This document shows, piece by piece, positions 21,575-30,424 of a stretch of 64,000 nucleotides of DNA. The stretch is from Chloropicon primus (lineage: Eukaryota > Chlorophyta > Chloropicophyceae > Chloropicales > Chloropicaceae): positions 1,426,001 to 1,490,000 of the forward strand of contig CP060756.1 of the NCBI GenBank assembly GCA_023205875.1, read 5' to 3'. Under the pieces are notes generated by a model, which saw only the letters and a list, made by a program, of their open reading frames with translations, searched no databases and was not told where the DNA came from. Numbering within the stretch: the first letter of the stretch is position 1; every line of letters begins with the position of its first letter. The position numbers and the translations under genes were made by a program.

Positions 21575-23198
21575 TTAGGCTGCCGCAGTGAGGGCGGTGA
21601 CAAGGTCTTTCCATTGCTTGGCCTGCTCCTCTGCAAGGGCGGCCTGCTTGGAGGCCAAGCCTTCCAGGGTGTACAGGAGGTCCGTCTTCCTCTGGCCGTG
21701 GTAGGCCGCGACCTCCGTCTTCATCCTTTCCTTCATGAGATCGTACCTGTCGTTGGCCTCGTCAAGCTTCCTGGTTGATTCGTTGAGCCTCTGCTCGGCG
21801 TCGGAGAGCTTCTCCTCCTTCACCCCAGGAGTGGCCCTGAGCTTGGCCAAGGCGTTCTTCTTGCTCTCCACGGACGCCTTCTTGTCGTGCTGCCTCTGCA
21901 AGGCGGAGCTCCTGTCGGACATCACGGTCCTCAAGCTCTTCACGTGCCTCGAGTACTCCTTCATCGGCTCCACAAACTGCAAATCGAGGTCAGTCAAGAC
22001 GCCGCCGATAGTCTCGTCCTTGAGAAGCTTCTCGGCAACCTTGACGAACTGGCTGCCGACCTTGGAGCCCTCGTCCTCCTTCTCCCCCAGCTTGCTCAAG
22101 CCCTCCCCAAAGGCTTCCATGGCCTTGAAGAGCTTCCTCTGCCTGCTCGCGAGCTTGTCAGCGTGGGCGTACATCTCTCCCATGTGGGTCTCCAAGGCCT
22201 GGGCGTACGTCTTCACCTGGAGGTACTCGGGGTCCTCGGACTCGTCCGCGGTCTTTCCGGTGATCAGGGAGGTTGTGCTGCTGGCGACGCCCTTGAAGAA
22301 TTTCTTCGCACCGAGAAAGCCCTTCTTGACGGCGCCCGTGTCTGCGCTGGCGGAAGTCACCTCAAGCTGCCAGGCCGTCTCCGCGGCCTCCAGGAAGAAC
22401 TGGAGCTCAGAAGAGAACTTCAGGACGGGGTGGGCGCACAAGCGGTTCACGAAGACGTTGAGGGCGTGGCACCTCCTCTCAATGAAGTCGGTGCCCATGG
22501 AGTACTTCTGAATCACGTCCTTCTCAGGCAGTGGAGGCACGATGACTCCCGGGTTCTTCTCTCCCAGCTTCTTGCTGAGCCAGGCAAAGTCCCTGAACCT
22601 CCTGATCACCTCCACGTCCCGCTGGGCGTACTGGGGGAGGCTCGTCTCAGTGCTGACCCTGTAGCTCACATAAGCGCCGATGCCCTCCCCCTGCTTCACG
22701 GGGTCGTACACTTTGACGACCAGGTCCCCCGTCGTGGTGGGGCTCGTCGCCTGGCCAGGGGAGGCGACGGTCTCGTCCCCATCGCCGTTCTGGTTTTCGA
22801 TTTCGATTTCATTCCACCAAACAAGCAAGACGAAGACCAAGAAGAAGAAGAAGAAGAAGAAGTCAGTCCCGTTCTGCCTGCGGTCCTCGGCAGTCAAGTC
22901 GTCCCCACGAGCGAGCGAGCAAAAAGCAAAACCCTTCCGGCACCACTTTTCCTGCCAAGCGCAACCCCTCCCGCCCCTGGACACCTCCTCTCGCGTGGGC
23001 GCCCACGCCTCCGAGCCCCCGCCCCTTCGTCCGCCCAAGCGGTTCACCGCAACGGAGAACAACACACACGCGCGCGCGCGCGCGCATTGGAGGTTCCCTT
23101 CACTCGTGGGTTGGTTGTGTGTTTTCGTTTTGGTGGAGGTGACTTACATTTTGTCCGTCGATGACGACGCTGTCGTACGGCGGTGGTGGTGCGGCCAT
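21575..23198 (-). CDS. SNX1: sorting nexin 1-like PX-BAR protein, two exons
   Basis: Exon 1 is 23198-23148 (17 codons, MAAPPPPYDSVVIDGQN) with donor GTAAGT; exon 2 is 22789-21575, joined in phase 0 across a 358-bp intron, giving 421 residues. The PX domain (about 40-150) has the phosphoinositide-binding RRFRDFAWL and VVPPLPEK-like (VIVPPLPEK) motifs. The C-terminal half is a long helical BAR/Vps5 domain. SNX1 is the membrane-bending part of plant retromer. Reading straight through the intron would add a poly-Phe stretch from a GAA repeat, which argues for splicing. Confidence 0.9.
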
Positions 23199-23505: not shown

Positions 23506-25686
23506 TCAATCGTCCGCCGCGTCAAAGACAAAGTAGTTGCCAGCCTTCTTTTGTTCCTGGTCCTGCTGACTTCCCCTCTTGTTGACGCGGGGCCTATAGT
23601 TCTCAGGGTCCCTCCTCAGGGTGACGTCCAGCTGGTTGAGGAACCTGTTGAAGCCGCCCACGAGGCCGACGGGCGTCCTGGCCGTGCACTCCACTCCGGG
23701 CCTTCCCTCGTAGAGGACGACCTTGTCCGAAAGAGCCGAGGCCATGACGAAATCGTGCTCCACGACCATGGCCATCTTTCCCAAGTGGTTCACCACCCAC
23801 CTCCTAATCACCTTTGCGGTTTGGACTCTCTGCTCGCAATCGAGGCCGGCGGAGGGCTCATCGAGGAGGTACACGTTCGCCTTCTGGGCGAGGCACATGG
23901 CGATGGCCACCCTCTGAAGCTCACCACCACTCAGGTCGCACACGTTCAGCTCCCACAAGGCAGGAATGGATAGGGGGTTCATGACCATGAGCCTGAAAAG
24001 CCTGTCGCTGCAGGCGTGGTTCACGTACTTCTCGAAGAGGAACTGGGTGGTTCCCCTGAACTTCCTCAGCTTTGGCGCGTACACCTGAGGCTTGTAGGCC
24101 ACGCCGATGTCTCGGAAGCTGCCCTCGTGGGTCTGGGATCTGTTGCCCTCCTCGTCCTTGGGGTCAAACTTTCCGGAGAGGAGTTCCATGAAGGTCGTCT
24201 TACCGCTACCGTTCTGCCCCAACAAGCCAACGCAGTCGTTTCCGGTGAAGGTACCAGCCTCCACGTGCAAGGTGAAGGACTTGCCCTTACCCTTACCGAG
24301 AGTCTTGCTCATGTCCGGGTAGTTGATGCCCAGCTTCTTGTTGGACTTCTCCCTCGCCGCGTCGTTCTCAGCGCCCTCTCCTCCCTCACCACCTCCCCTC
24401 ACCGCAAAGGTGATCGCCTCTTGCCTGAACCTCATGTTCTCCGCAGGGAAGTAGCCGGCGAGGTAGTTGTTGATTCCCACGGTGTTGGTGGCAATCTTGG
24501 TGACCACTCCGTAGGCTCCGGGCTCTCCATACAAGCAGTTGACGTAGTCCGCCATGTAATCCAGGACAGCCAAATCGTGCTCCACCACGATGACGTACTT
24601 TGGCCTGTCGCCCTCCCCCTTGAGGGACGCGAGCTCCCTGATGACCTCGGTCGCCTCGATCCTCTGCTTAATGTCCAAGAAGGAAGAAGCCTCGTCGAAG
24701 ATGTAGACGTCCGCTTCCCTGGCAGCCACGGCGCAGATGGCGAACCTCTGCAGCTCACCGCCGGAGAGCTGCTGGACCTCCCTCTCCAGGAGGTGGTCGA
24801 TCGTCAAGGCCTTGGTCAGGTGCTTGAGAGCACCCCTGTCGTCGCACCGCTCCAGAATCTCCCCCACGACCTTTCCCTTGGCAAACTTGGACACGAAGTC
24901 CACGTCCAGCTGCACCTTGGTCACCACCTTCAAGTCGTCCTCCAGCAGCTTGGTCAGGTAGGTCTGCAAGTCGCTTCCCCTGTGGTACGTCACGATGTCC
25001 TGCCAGGAAGGAGGGTCCTCAAAGTTGCCCAAGTTCGGCTTGAGCTTTCCCGCCAGGACCTTCAGGGCAGTCGACTTTCCGATTCCGTTCGAACCCAGGA
25101 GACCGACAACGTAGCCCGCCCTCGGGGAGGGGAGTCCGTGGAGCTTGAACCCGTTGGGCCCGTAGCGGTGGATGATGCCCGTCTTCAGGTCGTTTGGGAG
25201 GTTGACTATCTTGATGGCGTTTCCTGGGCACTTCTTGGCTCTCGTGAGGCAGGCCGCGCACGCGTCCTCGGATATCACAATACGCACCTTGGGCACCGGG
25301 TTCCCGTTCTCGTCCGTGTCCTGCTTTGGGAATCCTGGCATGCCCTGCCTCTGCACCTGAATGCAGTCTGTCCTGCACTGCTGTGCAATCCTTTGCAGAA
25401 ACATGAACGGTTCTGTCCCTGGTTTGCACTTGTTTTGGTCTAGCACAAGCATACGTTTTTTTTCCATCCCGCTTCCATCTCCTTTCCTCTCGAGGCCCTT
25501 TGCCCCTCCCTTTCCCTTCTTCCCCATCTTGTCGTCCTCCAGGTCCAGGTCCAGGTCAAGTCGTCCTCCTGTGTGTGTTCTGTGCTCTTCCTCTTTGTTG
25601 TTGTTGTTGTTGTGTTGGGTTCCCCTCGTTGGTTCCCTCCTCGTTCGAGCGCCGCCTTCTTCAGGAGGAAATTCGGGTGATGACAT
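23506..25686 (-). CDS. ABCE1: ABCE1/RLI1 ribosome-recycling ATPase with atypical Fe-S domain
   Basis: The start is uncertain: ATG at 25686 gives 726 residues, ATG at 25527 (MGKKGKGG) gives 673; canonical ABCE1 is about 600. Two ABC domains are complete: Walker A GSNGIGKST and GQNGSGKTT, signatures LSGGELQRFA and LSGGELQRVA, Walker B with catalytic Glu in FDEAS and LDEPSAGLD. The C-terminus (FRRDP-like LRRDPENYRPRVNK ... GNYFVFD) is typical. The N-terminal ferredoxin-like domain is not: it keeps six of eight cluster cysteines (NKCKP, QQCRTDC, ACAAC, KKCP), with an insertion of about 12 residues after CKP. ABCE1 splits post-termination ribosomes and is essential in eukaryotes. The gene is divergent from VPS39. 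Confidence 0.95.
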   Translation of the reverse strand: MSSPEFPPEEGGARTRREPTRGTQHNNNNNKEEEHRTHTGGRLDLDLDLEDDKMGKKGKGGAKGLERKGDGSGMEKKRMLVLDQNKCKPGTEPFMFLQRIAQQCRTDCIQVQRQGMPGFPKQDTDENGNPVPKVRIVISEDACAACLTRAKKCPGNAIKIVNLPNDLKTGIIHRYGPNGFKLHGLPSPRAGYVVGLLGSNGIGKSTALKVLAGKLKPNLGNFEDPPSWQDIVTYHRGSDLQTYLTKLLEDDLKVVTKVQLDVDFVSKFAKGKVVGEILERCDDRGALKHLTKALTIDHLLEREVQQLSGGELQRFAICAVAAREADVYIFDEASSFLDIKQRIEATEVIRELASLKGEGDRPKYVIVVEHDLAVLDYMADYVNCLYGEPGAYGVVTKIATNTVGINNYLAGYFPAENMRFRQEAITFAVRGGGEGGEGAENDAAREKSNKKLGINYPDMSKTLGKGKGKSFTLHVEAGTFTGNDCVGLLGQNGSGKTTFMELLSGKFDPKDEEGNRSQTHEGSFRDIGVAYKPQVYAPKLRKFRGTTQFLFEKYVNHACSDRLFRLMVMNPLSIPALWELNVCDLSGGELQRVAIAMCLAQKANVYLLDEPSAGLDCEQRVQTAKVIRRWVVNHLGKMAMVVEHDFVMASALSDKVVLYEGRPGVECTARTPVGLVGGFNRFLNQLDVTLRRDPENYRPRVNKRGSQQDQEQKKAGNYFVFDAADD

Positions 25687-25984: not shown

Positions 25985-28918
25985 ATGCAGAGGAAGGTGT
26001 TTGAGCTGGCGCAGGAGCAGTACACGAAGGCAGGGGGAGGGGTGACCGCGCTGGCGTGCTCGACGGTGACCAGGGACGATGGGCAAACAACGCAGACGTG
26101 GAGGAGGGACGCGACCGCGAACACCAGCGAGGGGGCCACGTCGAGCGAGGACGTCAAGCAACTGCTCGTGGGATTGAATGACGGGAGGGTCGAGGAGTAC
26201 CGGTTCGACACAAAGCGGCAGGGCTCGAACCTCGAGCTGTACAGGACGGTGAAGGTTGGGAAGAAAAGCATCGATCAGGTGTGCGTCATATCCTCGGGGT
26301 CGTCCAAGGCCCTGTGCGCCTTGTCGGGCGGAGTCCTGTGGCTCCTTCCGAGCGACGACTCGGGCGCCTCCCCAACGCAGGTCAAGGCGGGGGCTCTGAG
26401 GGGCCTGTTCTACATCGCCCAGGACCTGTGCAACTTGGAGTGCAGGAACCTTTTGGGACTGTGCAAGACCTCCCTGGCGCCGGGGCTGCCGAAGAAGTTG
26501 AAGCTCGTCTTCCTCGAGGTCGGGAGCTTCGCGCCGGGGGGCGCCGCTCAGTTCCACGTGCTCCACGAGCAAGTGATCGACGCCAAGGACGTGGTCCCGT
26601 CTTCCGCGCATGTTCGGGAGGCCGTTTGGTACGGCGACTCGGTGCTGCTGAGGACGGACAAGAATTACGTCCAGTTCAGCTTGTCCACAGGGGTGGCCAG
26701 GGAAATATTCGCGCACAACAACAAGGGTAAGGGCGCCAAGGGTCAGCAGGCGGGAGGCCTCTTCTCCGGGGGGTCCGCCCAGGACCAGGGGGGCAACGAG
26801 GTCTGCGCTCACCAGTACATGATTCCGATCGTGGAGCAGAAACAAACTATCCTCCTGGTGGAGGACATAGGCACCATCGTGAACATGGCCGGGGAGCCGA
26901 CGGGATCGATGGTTCAGTTCCCCATAGAGCCCATGGCTATCCACGCCATGTGCTTCCCTTACCTGCTCGCCGTCTTCGCAAAGTCTGTGTACGTGTACGA
27001 CATCCGCAAGGACCTGAGGGACGCCCACGTGCAGACCATCCCCTTCAGCAACTACTTTTTGAGCCCCACAAAGGTGGACAGGGTGCCGGTGACGTCGTGG
27101 ACGAGCGTGACGCCTTCGGGTGAGAACCAGATCTTCATCATGGTGGGCCACAGCGACATGCTCCTGTTCCTTTCCCAGACCCCGCTGGAGGAGCAGTGCA
27201 AGGAGATGCTCAGGGCGAGCAAGTTCCAAGAGTGCCTGCAGATCGCTTACACCAGCCAGCTCCCGAAGTACAGGGAGTACCTGATAGAGTTCTCCTGTGC
27301 GGAGGCAGCGTTTCTGCTGATCGAGAGGCTGGAGTTCTCCCGCGCGCTGGAGTTCCTCGGGGAGTGCCAAGAGTTCGAGCCCAACCAGCTCTTCCCCCTT
27401 TTCCCGGAATACACCAAGCCCTGGAAGACTCAGGTGAAGAGAAAGCGGTACTGGAGCATGCACCCTCCGCTGTGCTCGCTGGAGGACCTCGTGGGGAGGG
27501 CGACCAACAATGAGGGAGCGGGGGGCGCTCATGCGCTGCCGGACCGAGAGATCAAGGTTGCGATCGTCGACTTCGTGCTCGAGCTGCGGGCCAGGACGGG
27601 GGAGGGGGAGGAGACCGTGTTGGCGGACGGCGTGGACACGCTCTTGGCTCACCTCTTGCTCGACGTGGAAGACGTCAAGGGCCTGGAAGCCCTTTGCAAA
27701 GGACCGAACAAAGTTTTGATCCCCGAGGTTGAGAAGAGGTTCTGCTCCTCGGGAAGGATCCACGCCCTGGCCCTGCTTCGAGAGAGCCAGGGGGACTGCT
27801 TTGGCGCCGCCGAGCTGTGGACGAGCCTGTCCGAGGGCAAGCGGAGCGAGCTGCCGACTCCCGGCGCCTTCTTGACCGGCAAATCCCTCGGCGACGCCGT
27901 GTCCCTCGAACTGGCGAGGGTGGTGAAAAGGTCTGGACCTGGGGCCAGGGTTACGGGCACCTTTCTGCCCTGGCTCATGGACAGGTCCGTCGAAGTGAGC
28001 CTCAAGCTCCTGGCGGACATCTCCCTTCCGGTGGGGGAGACCATGGCGATGGTGAACGAGACGAAGCGGACCAGCTGCCGGTGGAGGTACCTCGATTTCG
28101 TGGTGAACGTCCAGGGGAGCACCGACCCCATGCACCACTCGGAGTTCGCCCTCTCGATGGTGAACCTGTGGAAGTCTCTCGAGTCCGGGGAGGGGGAGGC
28201 GGAGGAGGTTGGTGGGGCGACGGCGGAGGAGGTGTGCACCCGGCTCCAGGACTTCTTGGAGCACTCGGACTACTACAACACCCAGGCCGCGATCTCGGCG
28301 CTCAAAGGCACGACCCTGTGGCGGGAGCAGGTCATCGTGAACAAGAAGATCGGGAACCACAAGGAGGCCTTGCACATCCTGACCTTTGTGATCGGGGACA
28401 GCGAGGCGGGGGTGTCGTACTGCGAGGATCTCGGTTCCCAGGAGGGGTACTTGACCCTGCTGGACATGCTCCTCAACCCGGAGACCGGCCCGCCCCTGTA
28501 CGGCGAGGCGGTCCGCCTGCTGAGCTCCAAGGGCGCGTCCCTCAACCCGCTCAAGGTCCTGGACTCCCTGTCGGACAAGATGCCGATGCCCCTGGCCTAC
28601 GAGACCCTGGCCAGGATGCTCCGGGAGCGCCAGCACCGGAAGAGGAGCGGCCAGGTCCTCAAGGGCCTGGCTCGGGCGAACGAGCTCTCGGTCGCGCAGC
28701 AGAGGGTGGTCTCCCTCTCCGAGCACGTCGAGATGACCGCCGACCGGGCCTGCCGGGTGTGCAACATCAGGATCGGCACCAAGGTCTTCGGCCTTTACCC
28801 GAACGGCGTTCTGGTCTGCTACCGTTGCATGATGAGGTCGGGCAAGGACGCCCAGCACGTCTGCCCGGTCACGGGGAGGGACTTCAGCAAGGAGGAGGGG
28901 TGGGGGGACTGTATTTGA
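25985..28918 (+). CDS. VPS39: VPS39/VPS3 (TGFBRAP1)-type HOPS/CORVET subunit
   Basis: 977 residues. An N-terminal citron-homology (CNH) beta-propeller (about 10-310) is followed by a clathrin-heavy-chain-like helical repeat region and a C-terminal zinc-binding Vps39_2 segment with CRVCNIRIG, VFGLYPNGVLVCYRCM and CPVTGRDF. These proteins bind Rab7 or Rab5 and tether endosomes and vacuoles. I cannot decide between VPS39 (HOPS) and VPS3 (CORVET). The upstream ORF extension before the ATG at 25985 is repeat sequence and not part of the protein. Confidence 0.88.
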   Translation: MQRKVFELAQEQYTKAGGGVTALACSTVTRDDGQTTQTWRRDATANTSEGATSSEDVKQLLVGLNDGRVEEYRFDTKRQGSNLELYRTVKVGKKSIDQVCVISSGSSKALCALSGGVLWLLPSDDSGASPTQVKAGALRGLFYIAQDLCNLECRNLLGLCKTSLAPGLPKKLKLVFLEVGSFAPGGAAQFHVLHEQVIDAKDVVPSSAHVREAVWYGDSVLLRTDKNYVQFSLSTGVAREIFAHNNKGKGAKGQQAGGLFSGGSAQDQGGNEVCAHQYMIPIVEQKQTILLVEDIGTIVNMAGEPTGSMVQFPIEPMAIHAMCFPYLLAVFAKSVYVYDIRKDLRDAHVQTIPFSNYFLSPTKVDRVPVTSWTSVTPSGENQIFIMVGHSDMLLFLSQTPLEEQCKEMLRASKFQECLQIAYTSQLPKYREYLIEFSCAEAAFLLIERLEFSRALEFLGECQEFEPNQLFPLFPEYTKPWKTQVKRKRYWSMHPPLCSLEDLVGRATNNEGAGGAHALPDREIKVAIVDFVLELRARTGEGEETVLADGVDTLLAHLLLDVEDVKGLEALCKGPNKVLIPEVEKRFCSSGRIHALALLRESQGDCFGAAELWTSLSEGKRSELPTPGAFLTGKSLGDAVSLELARVVKRSGPGARVTGTFLPWLMDRSVEVSLKLLADISLPVGETMAMVNETKRTSCRWRYLDFVVNVQGSTDPMHHSEFALSMVNLWKSLESGEGEAEEVGGATAEEVCTRLQDFLEHSDYYNTQAAISALKGTTLWREQVIVNKKIGNHKEALHILTFVIGDSEAGVSYCEDLGSQEGYLTLLDMLLNPETGPPLYGEAVRLLSSKGASLNPLKVLDSLSDKMPMPLAYETLARMLRERQHRKRSGQVLKGLARANELSVAQQRVVSLSEHVEMTADRACRVCNIRIGTKVFGLYPNGVLVCYRCMMRSGKDAQHVCPVTGRDFSKEEGWGDCI

Positions 28919-29030: not shown

Positions 29031-29615
29031 CTATTGCTGCCCGAGGGACTCGCTGGCGGACTCCCCGTCGGGCTGGCACCGCTCGGACCCCACGCGCCAC
29101 CTCTCGTCCAGCGTCCCCAGAGCGCACGAGAAGGGCGGCTTCCCCAGCTTGTCGTTCACCAGGTTGTGCTGCTCGCACACCCAGACCGAGAAGGCCGCCC
29201 TGGACTCCAGCCTCGGGGGCTTGGCCTCGACCTCCCTGGCGAAGTCCTCCCTGCAGTGCGCGCACGGGTAGAGGTGCGCCAGCCCCCTGACCAGGTCCCC
29301 GGCCCTCTCCGCGTCCCTCGGGGTGGGCCTCGCGGGGTAGTAGGCCGCCACCGTGTGCAGCAGACCCCACGTCCTCGCCCCGAGCTCCTCCCTGTCCAGC
29401 GGGCACGACGACGACGACGACGACGCCGCCAGGAGTTCCCTGTGCCGGTGGTAGGCCCTCACGAGTTCCTCCTTGGAGTCCTTCGTGTTGGTGTTGGTGT
29501 TGGTGTTGGTGTTGTTTGTTGTATTCTTTATGTTTGATTGTTTGTGTGTCCTGTTCCTGAGTGTATTGAAGAGGTCCACCTTAGACCTACACACCCTCTC
29601 CTCGCACTCCTCCAT
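29031..29615 (-). CDS. ERV1: ERV1/ALR-type FAD sulfhydryl oxidase
   Basis: 194 residues. An N-terminal segment with a Thr-Asn repeat (residues about 28-46, encoded by a CAACAC hexamer array) precedes the Erv1/Alr domain: RTWGLLHTVAAYYPARPT, the redox pair CAHC in LYPCAHCREDF, the FAD-binding WVCEQHNLVNDKLGKP, and a final FSCALG. ERV1 reoxidises MIA40 in the mitochondrial intermembrane space; plant-type enzymes instead carry an additional C-terminal CX4C. Here a late Cys in SERCQPD lies in the tail. The start is set at MEECEERVC because upstream codons look non-coding. Confidence 0.88.
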   Translation of the reverse strand: MEECEERVCRSKVDLFNTLRNRTHKQSNIKNTTNNTNTNTNTNTKDSKEELVRAYHRHRELLAASSSSSSCPLDREELGARTWGLLHTVAAYYPARPTPRDAERAGDLVRGLAHLYPCAHCREDFAREVEAKPPRLESRAAFSVWVCEQHNLVNDKLGKPPFSCALGTLDERWRVGSERCQPDGESASESLGQQ

Positions 29616-29977
29616 CCCTCCCAAGCCCAAGGCCAACCCAGTGCGCTCCTCGTCCTCCTCGTCCCCCCTCGTCCTCGTGGGGTGGGGAAAATGTCGATAT
29701 TTCCGTTGATGGATCCTGATTTTTTTCTTTTTTATTTTGATTTTGAACTGAAGCGCGAACCCAGGGAAAGGCGGGAACTGTGTGGAATGTAGATTTCCCC
29801 TCTTGAGGAAGCCTGACGTTACAAATCCTCCGGACACAAACAAAAGAGAAGAAAAAGAGAGAACGAGAGAGAGGGAGAACGACACGAACCCTTGCTCGCC
29901 CGAGAGCAACACAACACGCGACCACCACCAACACCACGACGGAAAGGATAAGAGACATCCCTTGACTTGAAACCAGG
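29616..29977. promoter_or_regulatory. divergent promoter ERV1 / histone H1
   Basis: A 362-bp spacer with an AT-rich patch at 29700-29755 and a GA-rich segment (about 29838-29880). No gene is seen. Confidence 0.4.
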
Positions 29978-30424
29978 ATGCCAAGAACGCCAGCAAGGAA
30001 GACGAAGAAGGCCGCACCGAGCCACCCACCGTATGCGGACATGGTCAAGGCAGCCATCGTGGCGCTCAAGGACAGAACAGGATCGAGTGCGGTGGCCATC
30101 GCCAAGTACTTGGACGGGAACTACAAGTTGCCAGATACCTACAAGAAGTCGCTCTCGCTGACGCTCAAGAAGCTCGTCGAGAGCGGGAAGCTCGTCAAGG
30201 TCAAGGCGTCGTACAAGTTGGGTTCCCTCAAGACCGAGCCCAAGAAGAAGGTCGTGAAGAAGAAGCCTGCGGCGAAGAAGAAGACCACCGCGGCCAAGAA
30301 GAAGACCGCACCCAAGAAGAAGGTCGCCAAGAAGCCAAAGAAGCCTGCCGCCAAGAAGCCAAAGAAGGCCGCACCAAAGAAGAAGACCGCCGCGAAGAAG
30401 AAAATTGTCAAGAGAAAGAAGTAG
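29978..30424 (+). CDS. linker histone H1
   Basis: 148 residues. A short basic N-terminus is followed by the H15 winged-helix domain (about 14-80: HPPYADMVKAAIVALKDR, GSSAVAIAKYL, LKKLVESGKLVKVKASYKLG) and a Lys/Ala/Pro tail of PKKKVAKKPKK-type repeats. It binds linker DNA between nucleosomes. It is a solitary, intronless gene; no core histone neighbours are present. Confidence 0.97.
   Translation: MPRTPARKTKKAAPSHPPYADMVKAAIVALKDRTGSSAVAIAKYLDGNYKLPDTYKKSLSLTLKKLVESGKLVKVKASYKLGSLKTEPKKKVVKKKPAAKKKTTAAKKKTAPKKKVAKKPKKPAAKKPKKAAPKKKTAAKKKIVKRKK

Follow-up and report, generated by a model that had tools for sequence, protein, structure and literature searches.

The gene for ABCE1 (RLI1), the ribosome-recycling ATPase of archaea and eukaryotes, is reported to be essential and, in most genomes, present once, and reviews present eight cysteines holding two [4Fe-4S] clusters as the norm for ABCE proteins (PMC6088178). 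These ligands follow the canonical order C1-X4-C2-X3-C3-X3-C4P for the first motif and C1'-X2-C2'-X2-C3'-X3-C4'P for the second, and between the two motifs lies an LCIEV strand whose cysteine, in the following referred to as C5, is not a ligand. Here, we analyze a stretch of 64,000 nucleotides (the window) from the tiny marine green alga Chloropicon primus (GenBank assembly GCA_023205875.1, contig CP060756.1, positions 1,426,001 to 1,490,000), which encodes an ABCE1 in which neither CX4CX3CX3CP nor CX2CX2CX3CP is present as such. A sequence-only reading of the window had proposed that this protein lost exactly one of its two clusters. We find that it belongs to a distinct, apparently undescribed branch of ABCE1, in which a new tetracysteine centre, binding zinc or a single Fe-S cluster, has probably taken the place of both clusters. 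With a natural clade that lacks both canonical ligand sets, and a chromosome-level genome in which such a gene is the only ABCE1 found, the question of why ABCE1 needs clusters becomes directly testable.

In single-cluster ferredoxins, strand 1 is followed by a CX2CX2C (or CX2D) motif. By comparison, zinc ribbons and treble-clef zinc fingers carry a cysteine pair spaced by X2 before a β-hairpin and a CX2C pair after it, at the start of a helix. On the level of whole genes, EFL is a divergent homolog that has patchily replaced EF-1α, an essential translation GTPase, across protists. Among ABCE1 proteins, yeast Rli1 with either C25S or C61S is reported to grow only in the absence of oxygen, and combining the two mutations is lethal (PMC4523923). 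These single mutants resemble the protein described here in that an ABCE1 short of a canonical ligand still supports growth, but the altered clade is a natural one that occurs in photosynthetic algae.

The sole ABCE1 of Chloropicon primus

The gene (Table 1) most likely starts with the ATG at 25527, because its close relatives P0003 and P0004 share the same MGKK beginning. Its frame is open and uninterrupted, and the product aligns with relatives from end to end. It scores 644 bits against the NCBIfam RLI equivalog NF009945 (cut-off 469) and has the overall architecture of ABCE1, including the hinge, an N-terminal domain and two ABC ATPase domains, in which the Walker A, signature, Walker B and H motifs are all intact and arranged as in other RLI proteins. 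Pfam matched the ABC ATPase domains in the protein, but neither Fer4_RLI (PF04068) nor Fer4. The N-terminal region reads NKCKPGTEPFMFLQRIAQQCRTDCIQV...SEDACAACLTRAKKCPG, with NKC-KPGTEPFMFLQRIAQQ-C-RTD-C-IQV in the region of the first motif and ACAACLTRAKKCP, with arginine at the third position, in the second, just as the sequence-only reading had given them.

The genome that we searched comprises 17,584,162 bases in 20 contigs; a published account of Chloropicon genomes lists, in the column fitting C. primus RCC138, 17,584,162 bp in 20 chromosomes, telomere-to-telomere save for one chromosome end (PMC12301720). With the window protein as query, a single full-length ABCE1 was found (1712 bits; next match, 50 bits), and a canonical green-lineage ABCE1 (P0103, an entry named Mesvir, which we read as Mesostigma) retrieved the same single locus (592.5 bits; next match, 34). 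The only PF04068 match elsewhere in the genome lies inside a 323-residue frame, presumably Tsr3. Neither protein query nor the PF04068 scan thus revealed a second ABCE1 in these 17,584,162 bases; the gene is the sole ABCE1 of C. primus in the assembly, single copy as is usual for this family. Canonical ligands have indeed been lost, in a coherent change, from the only ABCE1 of the assembly, with no normal copy found beside it; to this extent, the sequence-only reading is supported.

Table 1. Features of the C. primus ABCE1 gene, in window coordinates (conservation counts refer to alignment A3, 108 rows)
Feature	Position	Strand	Remark
ABCE1 coding sequence	23506..25527	minus	673 residues, intronless; start ATG 25527
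Altered N-terminal 'Fe-S' domain, residues 25-112	25192..25455	minus	predicted β-α-β-β-α-β
Cys34	25426..25428	minus	canonical C1; Cys in 75/108, not invariant
Predicted new helix, residues 39-48	25384..25413	minus	where the canonical C2/C3/C4 loop sits
Cys51	25375..25377	minus	putatively new, or displaced C4; 108/108
Cys55	25363..25365	minus	canonical non-ligand Cys (C5) of the LCIEV strand; 108/108
Lengthened hairpin loop, residues 61-80	25288..25347	minus	the segment that is actually longer in C. primus and its close kin
Cys90	25258..25260	minus	canonical C1'; 108/108
Cys93	25249..25251	minus	canonical C2'; 107/108 (Ser in P0150)
Arg96	25240..25242	minus	canonical C3' position; Arg 103, Lys 4, Leu 1 of 108
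Cys100	25228..25230	minus	canonical C4'; Cys in 85/108, not invariant

A family of altered ABCE1 proteins

A search with the N-terminal 200 residues matched 1745 proteins, the best 120 of which comprise 31 of the altered and 89 of the canonical type, judged by their cysteine pattern. When a profile built from 20 altered sequences was used, the best 120 of 7792 matches were all of the altered type; the precomputed domains of these 120 proteins include neither PF04068 nor PF00037, and eight of the proteins come from MMETSP transcriptomes. In total, there are at least 123 altered relatives among the matches listed, 120 with the altered second motif and 115 with the CX3-5CI pair, the rest being cut N-terminally. 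With this many relatives of the same type, the pattern is neither due to chance nor an oddity of a single genome, and the loss of ligands is common to a whole clade. Named carriers include the diatoms Seminavis robusta, Pseudo-nitzschia australis and Corethron (entries C. hystrix and C. pennatum), the bolidophyte Triparma laevis, the dictyochophyte Florenciella parvula and Amoebophrya sp. A25 (taxonomy was looked up for two of the named carriers); most of the remaining relatives are metagenome or transcriptome records. We found no description of this clade in the full-text literature, as judged by titles and the beginnings of abstracts and mostly without subscription papers and bioRxiv. For further analysis, the window protein and 107 of the 123 relatives were aligned (A3, 108 rows), the 16 omitted being mostly incomplete.

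Register and conservation of the cysteines

In comparison to canonical ABCE1, the altered type lacks four of the eight ligands, has a predicted helix for the C2-C4 loop, an arginine for C3' and an additional cysteine. The underlying register is given by MAFFT and by an hhalign comparison of the two domain profiles (probability 98%), which pair the altered GKECIxV with the canonical GKLCIEV and match C1 to C1 and C1'/C2' to C1'/C2'. In this favored register, the altered 'CGKECIxV' corresponds to the canonical 'MGKLCIEV' with its non-ligand cysteine, and hhalign places the extra altered cysteine opposite C4, with low confidence. Because the GKECI-type segment pairs with GKLCIEV, C2 and C3 are not retained, and the CX3C that had been taken for the canonical C2-X3-C3 is a different pair. 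The ligands absent from C. primus ABCE1 are then C2, C3, C4 and C3'. As judged from this register, C2, C3 and C4 would have disappeared as a loop, with the predicted helix in their place, and neither canonical cluster would keep its ligand set; the cysteine that precedes C5 by four to six residues is either new or a displaced C4.

A register in which C2 and C3 are kept and 12 extra residues are inserted between the first two cysteines, as the sequence-only reading had it, was rejected on the basis of the profile alignment and the segment lengths. The distance from C1 to C5 is 21-23 residues in all 108 altered rows; of the 205 canonical rows, 201 have a distance of 22 and four are truncated at the N-terminus. 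This canonical count was taken from the full set of 205 rows (89 sorted as canonical by motif and 116 not so sorted), rather than from rows preselected by a pattern that fixes the value at 22, and the same 201 rows retain all eight ligands and the LCIEV cysteine. From C5 to C1', the distance is 17 in the 201 canonical and 15-17 in 88 of the 108 altered rows, but 35 in C. primus, whose close kin share a longer hairpin loop. The additional length therefore lies behind C5, and it is this longer loop that gave rise to the other register. The distance within the first cysteine pair of the altered rows is 4 (89 rows), 5 (13) or 6 (6).

The cysteines differ in their conservation. C51, C55 and C90 are found in 108 of 108 rows and C93 in 107, so that two cysteine pairs are essentially invariant, whereas C1 is replaced in 33 rows and C4' in 23. 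The best FastTree phylogeny of the ATPase domains implies a minimum of 8 changes at C1 and of 11 at C4', with supported and unsupported branches weighted alike. Both are lost together in 15 rows, without a significant co-loss signal (sign test, five pairs). Since the former four are held and the latter two are repeatedly lost, selection evidently maintains the combination CX3-5C + CX2C. This quartet is not the one that had been proposed, i.e. the four ligands of the first cluster; it points to a site composed partly of cluster II ligands (C1' and C2') and partly of canonical non-ligand positions. C. primus ABCE1 itself retains all six cysteines (C34, C51, C55, C90, C93 and C100). Outside the N-terminal domain, no core residue of either ATP site varies across the 108 rows, with small changes at flanking sites (e.g. 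LSTGE in two rows), and both ATPase domains carry extra insertions relative to canonical ABCE1.

Variation was also seen among archaeal ABCE1 sequences. All canonical eukaryotic rows whose domain is complete have the LCIEV cysteine. In archaea it is rare, a cysteine at this spacing being found in 4 of the 71 loci with both motifs, but it does occur in the Heimdallarchaeota and Kariarchaeota records L029, L033 and L040. Among nine loci that failed the motif patterns, four of the 80 loci fetched lack the second cysteine of motif 2, a cluster II ligand, with the variants LCEGEGIC, LCSGVAIC and LCAGAGMC; these Asgard sequences are from Jordarchaeum, two Heimdallarchaeota and one Lokiarchaeota (L014, L027, L031 and L053).

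Phylogeny and distribution

In trees based on the ATPase domains only, with an archaeal outgroup, the altered rows form one clade, with support of 100/100 in a tree with 23 altered rows and 100 in one with 44. C. primus falls inside this clade, as do Triparma and the diatoms, which form a subclade with other rows. A long stem branch (0.56) leads to the altered clade, and support for the canonical rows as a single group is only 70/24. In approximately unbiased (AU) tests, whose groups were picked after the first tree had been inspected, the grouping of the C. primus genes with canonical green-lineage genes was rejected (p-AU 1.75e-57), and so was that of the altered diatom and Triparma genes with canonical stramenopile genes (p-AU 3.2e-32). 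Neither an origin of the whole altered clade within the canonical stramenopiles (p 0.22) nor one within the canonical greens (p 0.079) was rejected; given this and the weakly supported canonical group, several positions of the root are compatible with the data. Most likely, the altered type arose once and was then transferred or patchily retained. In this, it resembles EFL, likewise a divergent homolog that patchily replaces an essential translation factor, although EFL is a GTPase and altered ABCE1 a recycling ATPase with a changed metal domain. A single scan of viral_contigs with the altered alignment yielded no relative.

Canonical ABCE1 occurs in the same broad groups. Among the best 120 of 7995 matches to a canonical stramenopile query, the stramenopiles identified by name comprise several oomycetes, Heterosigma, Nannochloropsis, Chrysoparadoxa, Rhizochromulina, Chrysophaeum, Spumella and an entry labelled as the diatom Pseudictyota dubia; a mutual exclusion of the two types is not established from these 120 matches. 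Rhizochromulina presumably belongs to the same class as Florenciella. The Pseudictyota entry (P0309) is a canonical ABCE1 from MMETSP1175 with the taxid of P. dubia, and the other named diatoms have the altered type; either diatoms vary, or some carry both types, or the label is wrong.

Predicted fold and proposed metal centre

The structure models, which were built from altered sequences only, retain the ferredoxin-like β-α-β-β-α-β fold. Matches of the domain in the PDB, obtained with Foldseek, are ferredoxin-like but weak (none with an E-value of 0.001 or better), and several are single-cluster proteins. A zinc-finger entry, be it of the zinc-ribbon or treble-clef fold, did not stand out among the matches listed for the domain model. 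We had considered a complete switch to a treble-clef zinc finger and toned this idea down, as the domain model matched ferredoxin-like folds.

We propose that, in this long-branched eukaryotic clade, to which the sole ABCE1 of C. primus belongs, the ferredoxin-like scaffold was kept and the two [4Fe-4S] ligand sets were not. The C2-C4 loop would have become a helix and C3' an arginine, and one new cysteine, or a shifted C4, would now precede the former non-ligand cysteine of LCIEV by four to six residues. In the predicted topology, C51 and C55 would be located just before strand 2 of the hairpin, and C1'-X2-C2' behind strand 3, where the following helix begins. Because of this placement, the invariant four could close on a single metal centre at one end of the hairpin. 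This arrangement recalls that of zinc ribbons and treble clefs, with a cysteine pair before a hairpin and a CX2C after it at a helix start, but differs from them in its ferredoxin-like embedding, in the absence of such folds from the listed matches and in the X3-X5 spacing of the first pair. It also differs from single-[4Fe-4S] bacterial-type ferredoxins (1fxr, 1vjw, 1iqz and Pyrococcus furiosus ferredoxin 1siz), as its invariant cysteines flank the central hairpin and a CX2CX2C (or CX2D) motif with a distant CP was not found in the altered domain.

While we consider a single tetracysteine centre in place of two clusters probable, several points weigh against it or against zinc as its metal. 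The meeting of the four cysteines is derived from topology rather than from measured distances, and the models cover altered sequences only. The weak ferredoxin-like matches are as compatible with an Fe-S centre as with zinc, the CX3-5C + CX2C pattern is not confined to zinc sites, and in C. primus, with its six cysteines, additional or other ligands may take part. A structural zinc ion appears to have about an even chance. A single Fe-S cluster ([4Fe-4S] or [2Fe-2S]) on the invariant quartet is a somewhat weaker, yet serious, candidate: cluster II would be kept via C1', C2', the displaced C4 and, in place of C3', the old non-ligand cysteine, and cluster I lost. Such a centre could be made, since the cytosolic iron-sulfur assembly (CIA) pathway is present (CIAPIN1), but the cysteine pattern is not the CX2CX2C ferredoxin signature. 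Moreover, the Yae1/Lto1 adaptor domain (PF09811) gave nothing over the cut-off in the genome, only one sub-threshold match (16.8 bits; cut-off 27.5) beside low-complexity sequence. This search is a weak one, as the adaptors are small and divergent and the control genomes lacked any true positive, and the adaptors are reported to be absent from many eukaryotes (PMC11838916). That the cysteines bind no metal or form disulfides seems unlikely.

The alternatives that leave the quartet aside fare worse. The original proposal, with cluster I intact on C34, C51, C55 (as C1, C2 and C3) and C100 (C4') and cluster II alone lost, accords with the presence of these four cysteines in C. primus and with the 66 of 108 rows that combine C1 and C4' with the quartet and the arginine; the viability of yeast Rli1 with C25S or C61S alone in the absence of oxygen further indicates that an ABCE1 with a damaged cluster can work (PMC4523923). 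Nevertheless, it requires a register that is not the favored one, places the predicted helix between C34 and C51, relies on two cysteines that are repeatedly lost and gives no role to C1' and C2', which are invariant or nearly so; we regard it as improbable. Equally improbable is a divergent paralog with another task and a true ABCE1 elsewhere. Such a paralog might explain the long stem branch, and the canonical members of the same groups (Rhizochromulina, the entry labelled Pseudictyota) make co-occurrence in some species possible, but no other ABCE1 was found in the C. primus genome, the core catalytic residues are invariant, and the gene is described as single copy in most genomes (PMC6088178). 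Finally, an assembly error, a hidden intron or a pseudogene can be practically dismissed: the frame is open and intronless, conservation is strong, and the same pattern recurs in relatives from other sources, including the eight MMETSP rows, in line with the sequence-only reading, which had seen no plausible intron.

Implications for function

ABCE1 with the altered domain would split ribosomes by the usual ATP-driven domain swing, because both ATP sites and the K-P loop are kept, and its metal would act only as a structural staple. The lysine and the proline after C1 are each found in 104 of the 108 rows; in archaeal ABCE1, the corresponding K12-P13-D14 loop is described to clash with nucleotide-binding domain 2 (NBD2) on closure, coupling closure to domain movement, and K15, N17 and E19 are listed among the rRNA-contacting residues (PMC7196836). 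By position, the latter three would fall into the replaced segment, and the new helix therefore probably remakes this contact. The clusters of ABCE1 are assigned a structural role (PMC8153317), which a single metal staple could take over. Tentatively, we suggest that in this branch of algae and other protists the most conserved Fe-S protein of translation gave up its two [4Fe-4S] clusters in favor of a single zinc site; ribosomes would then be recycled there without any Fe-S cluster and free from limitation by iron or oxidants, and the clusters of ABCE1 would be replaceable structural staples. This may, speculatively, also bear on iron saving in plankton.

Neighbouring genes

The divergently transcribed neighbor of ABCE1 (25985-28915, plus strand) has the C-terminal zinc finger of Vps39 (PF10367). 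The open frame of this gene extends back over the 5' end of ABCE1, and the two genes may share a promoter region. Within a few kilobases of ABCE1, there is a gene for an Erv1/ALR sulfhydryl oxidase (PF04777, 98.6 bits; 29034-29630, minus strand), followed on the same side by one for a linker histone H1 (29978-30421, plus strand). Downstream of ABCE1, there is a PX-Vps5 sorting nexin gene (21578-22801, minus strand).
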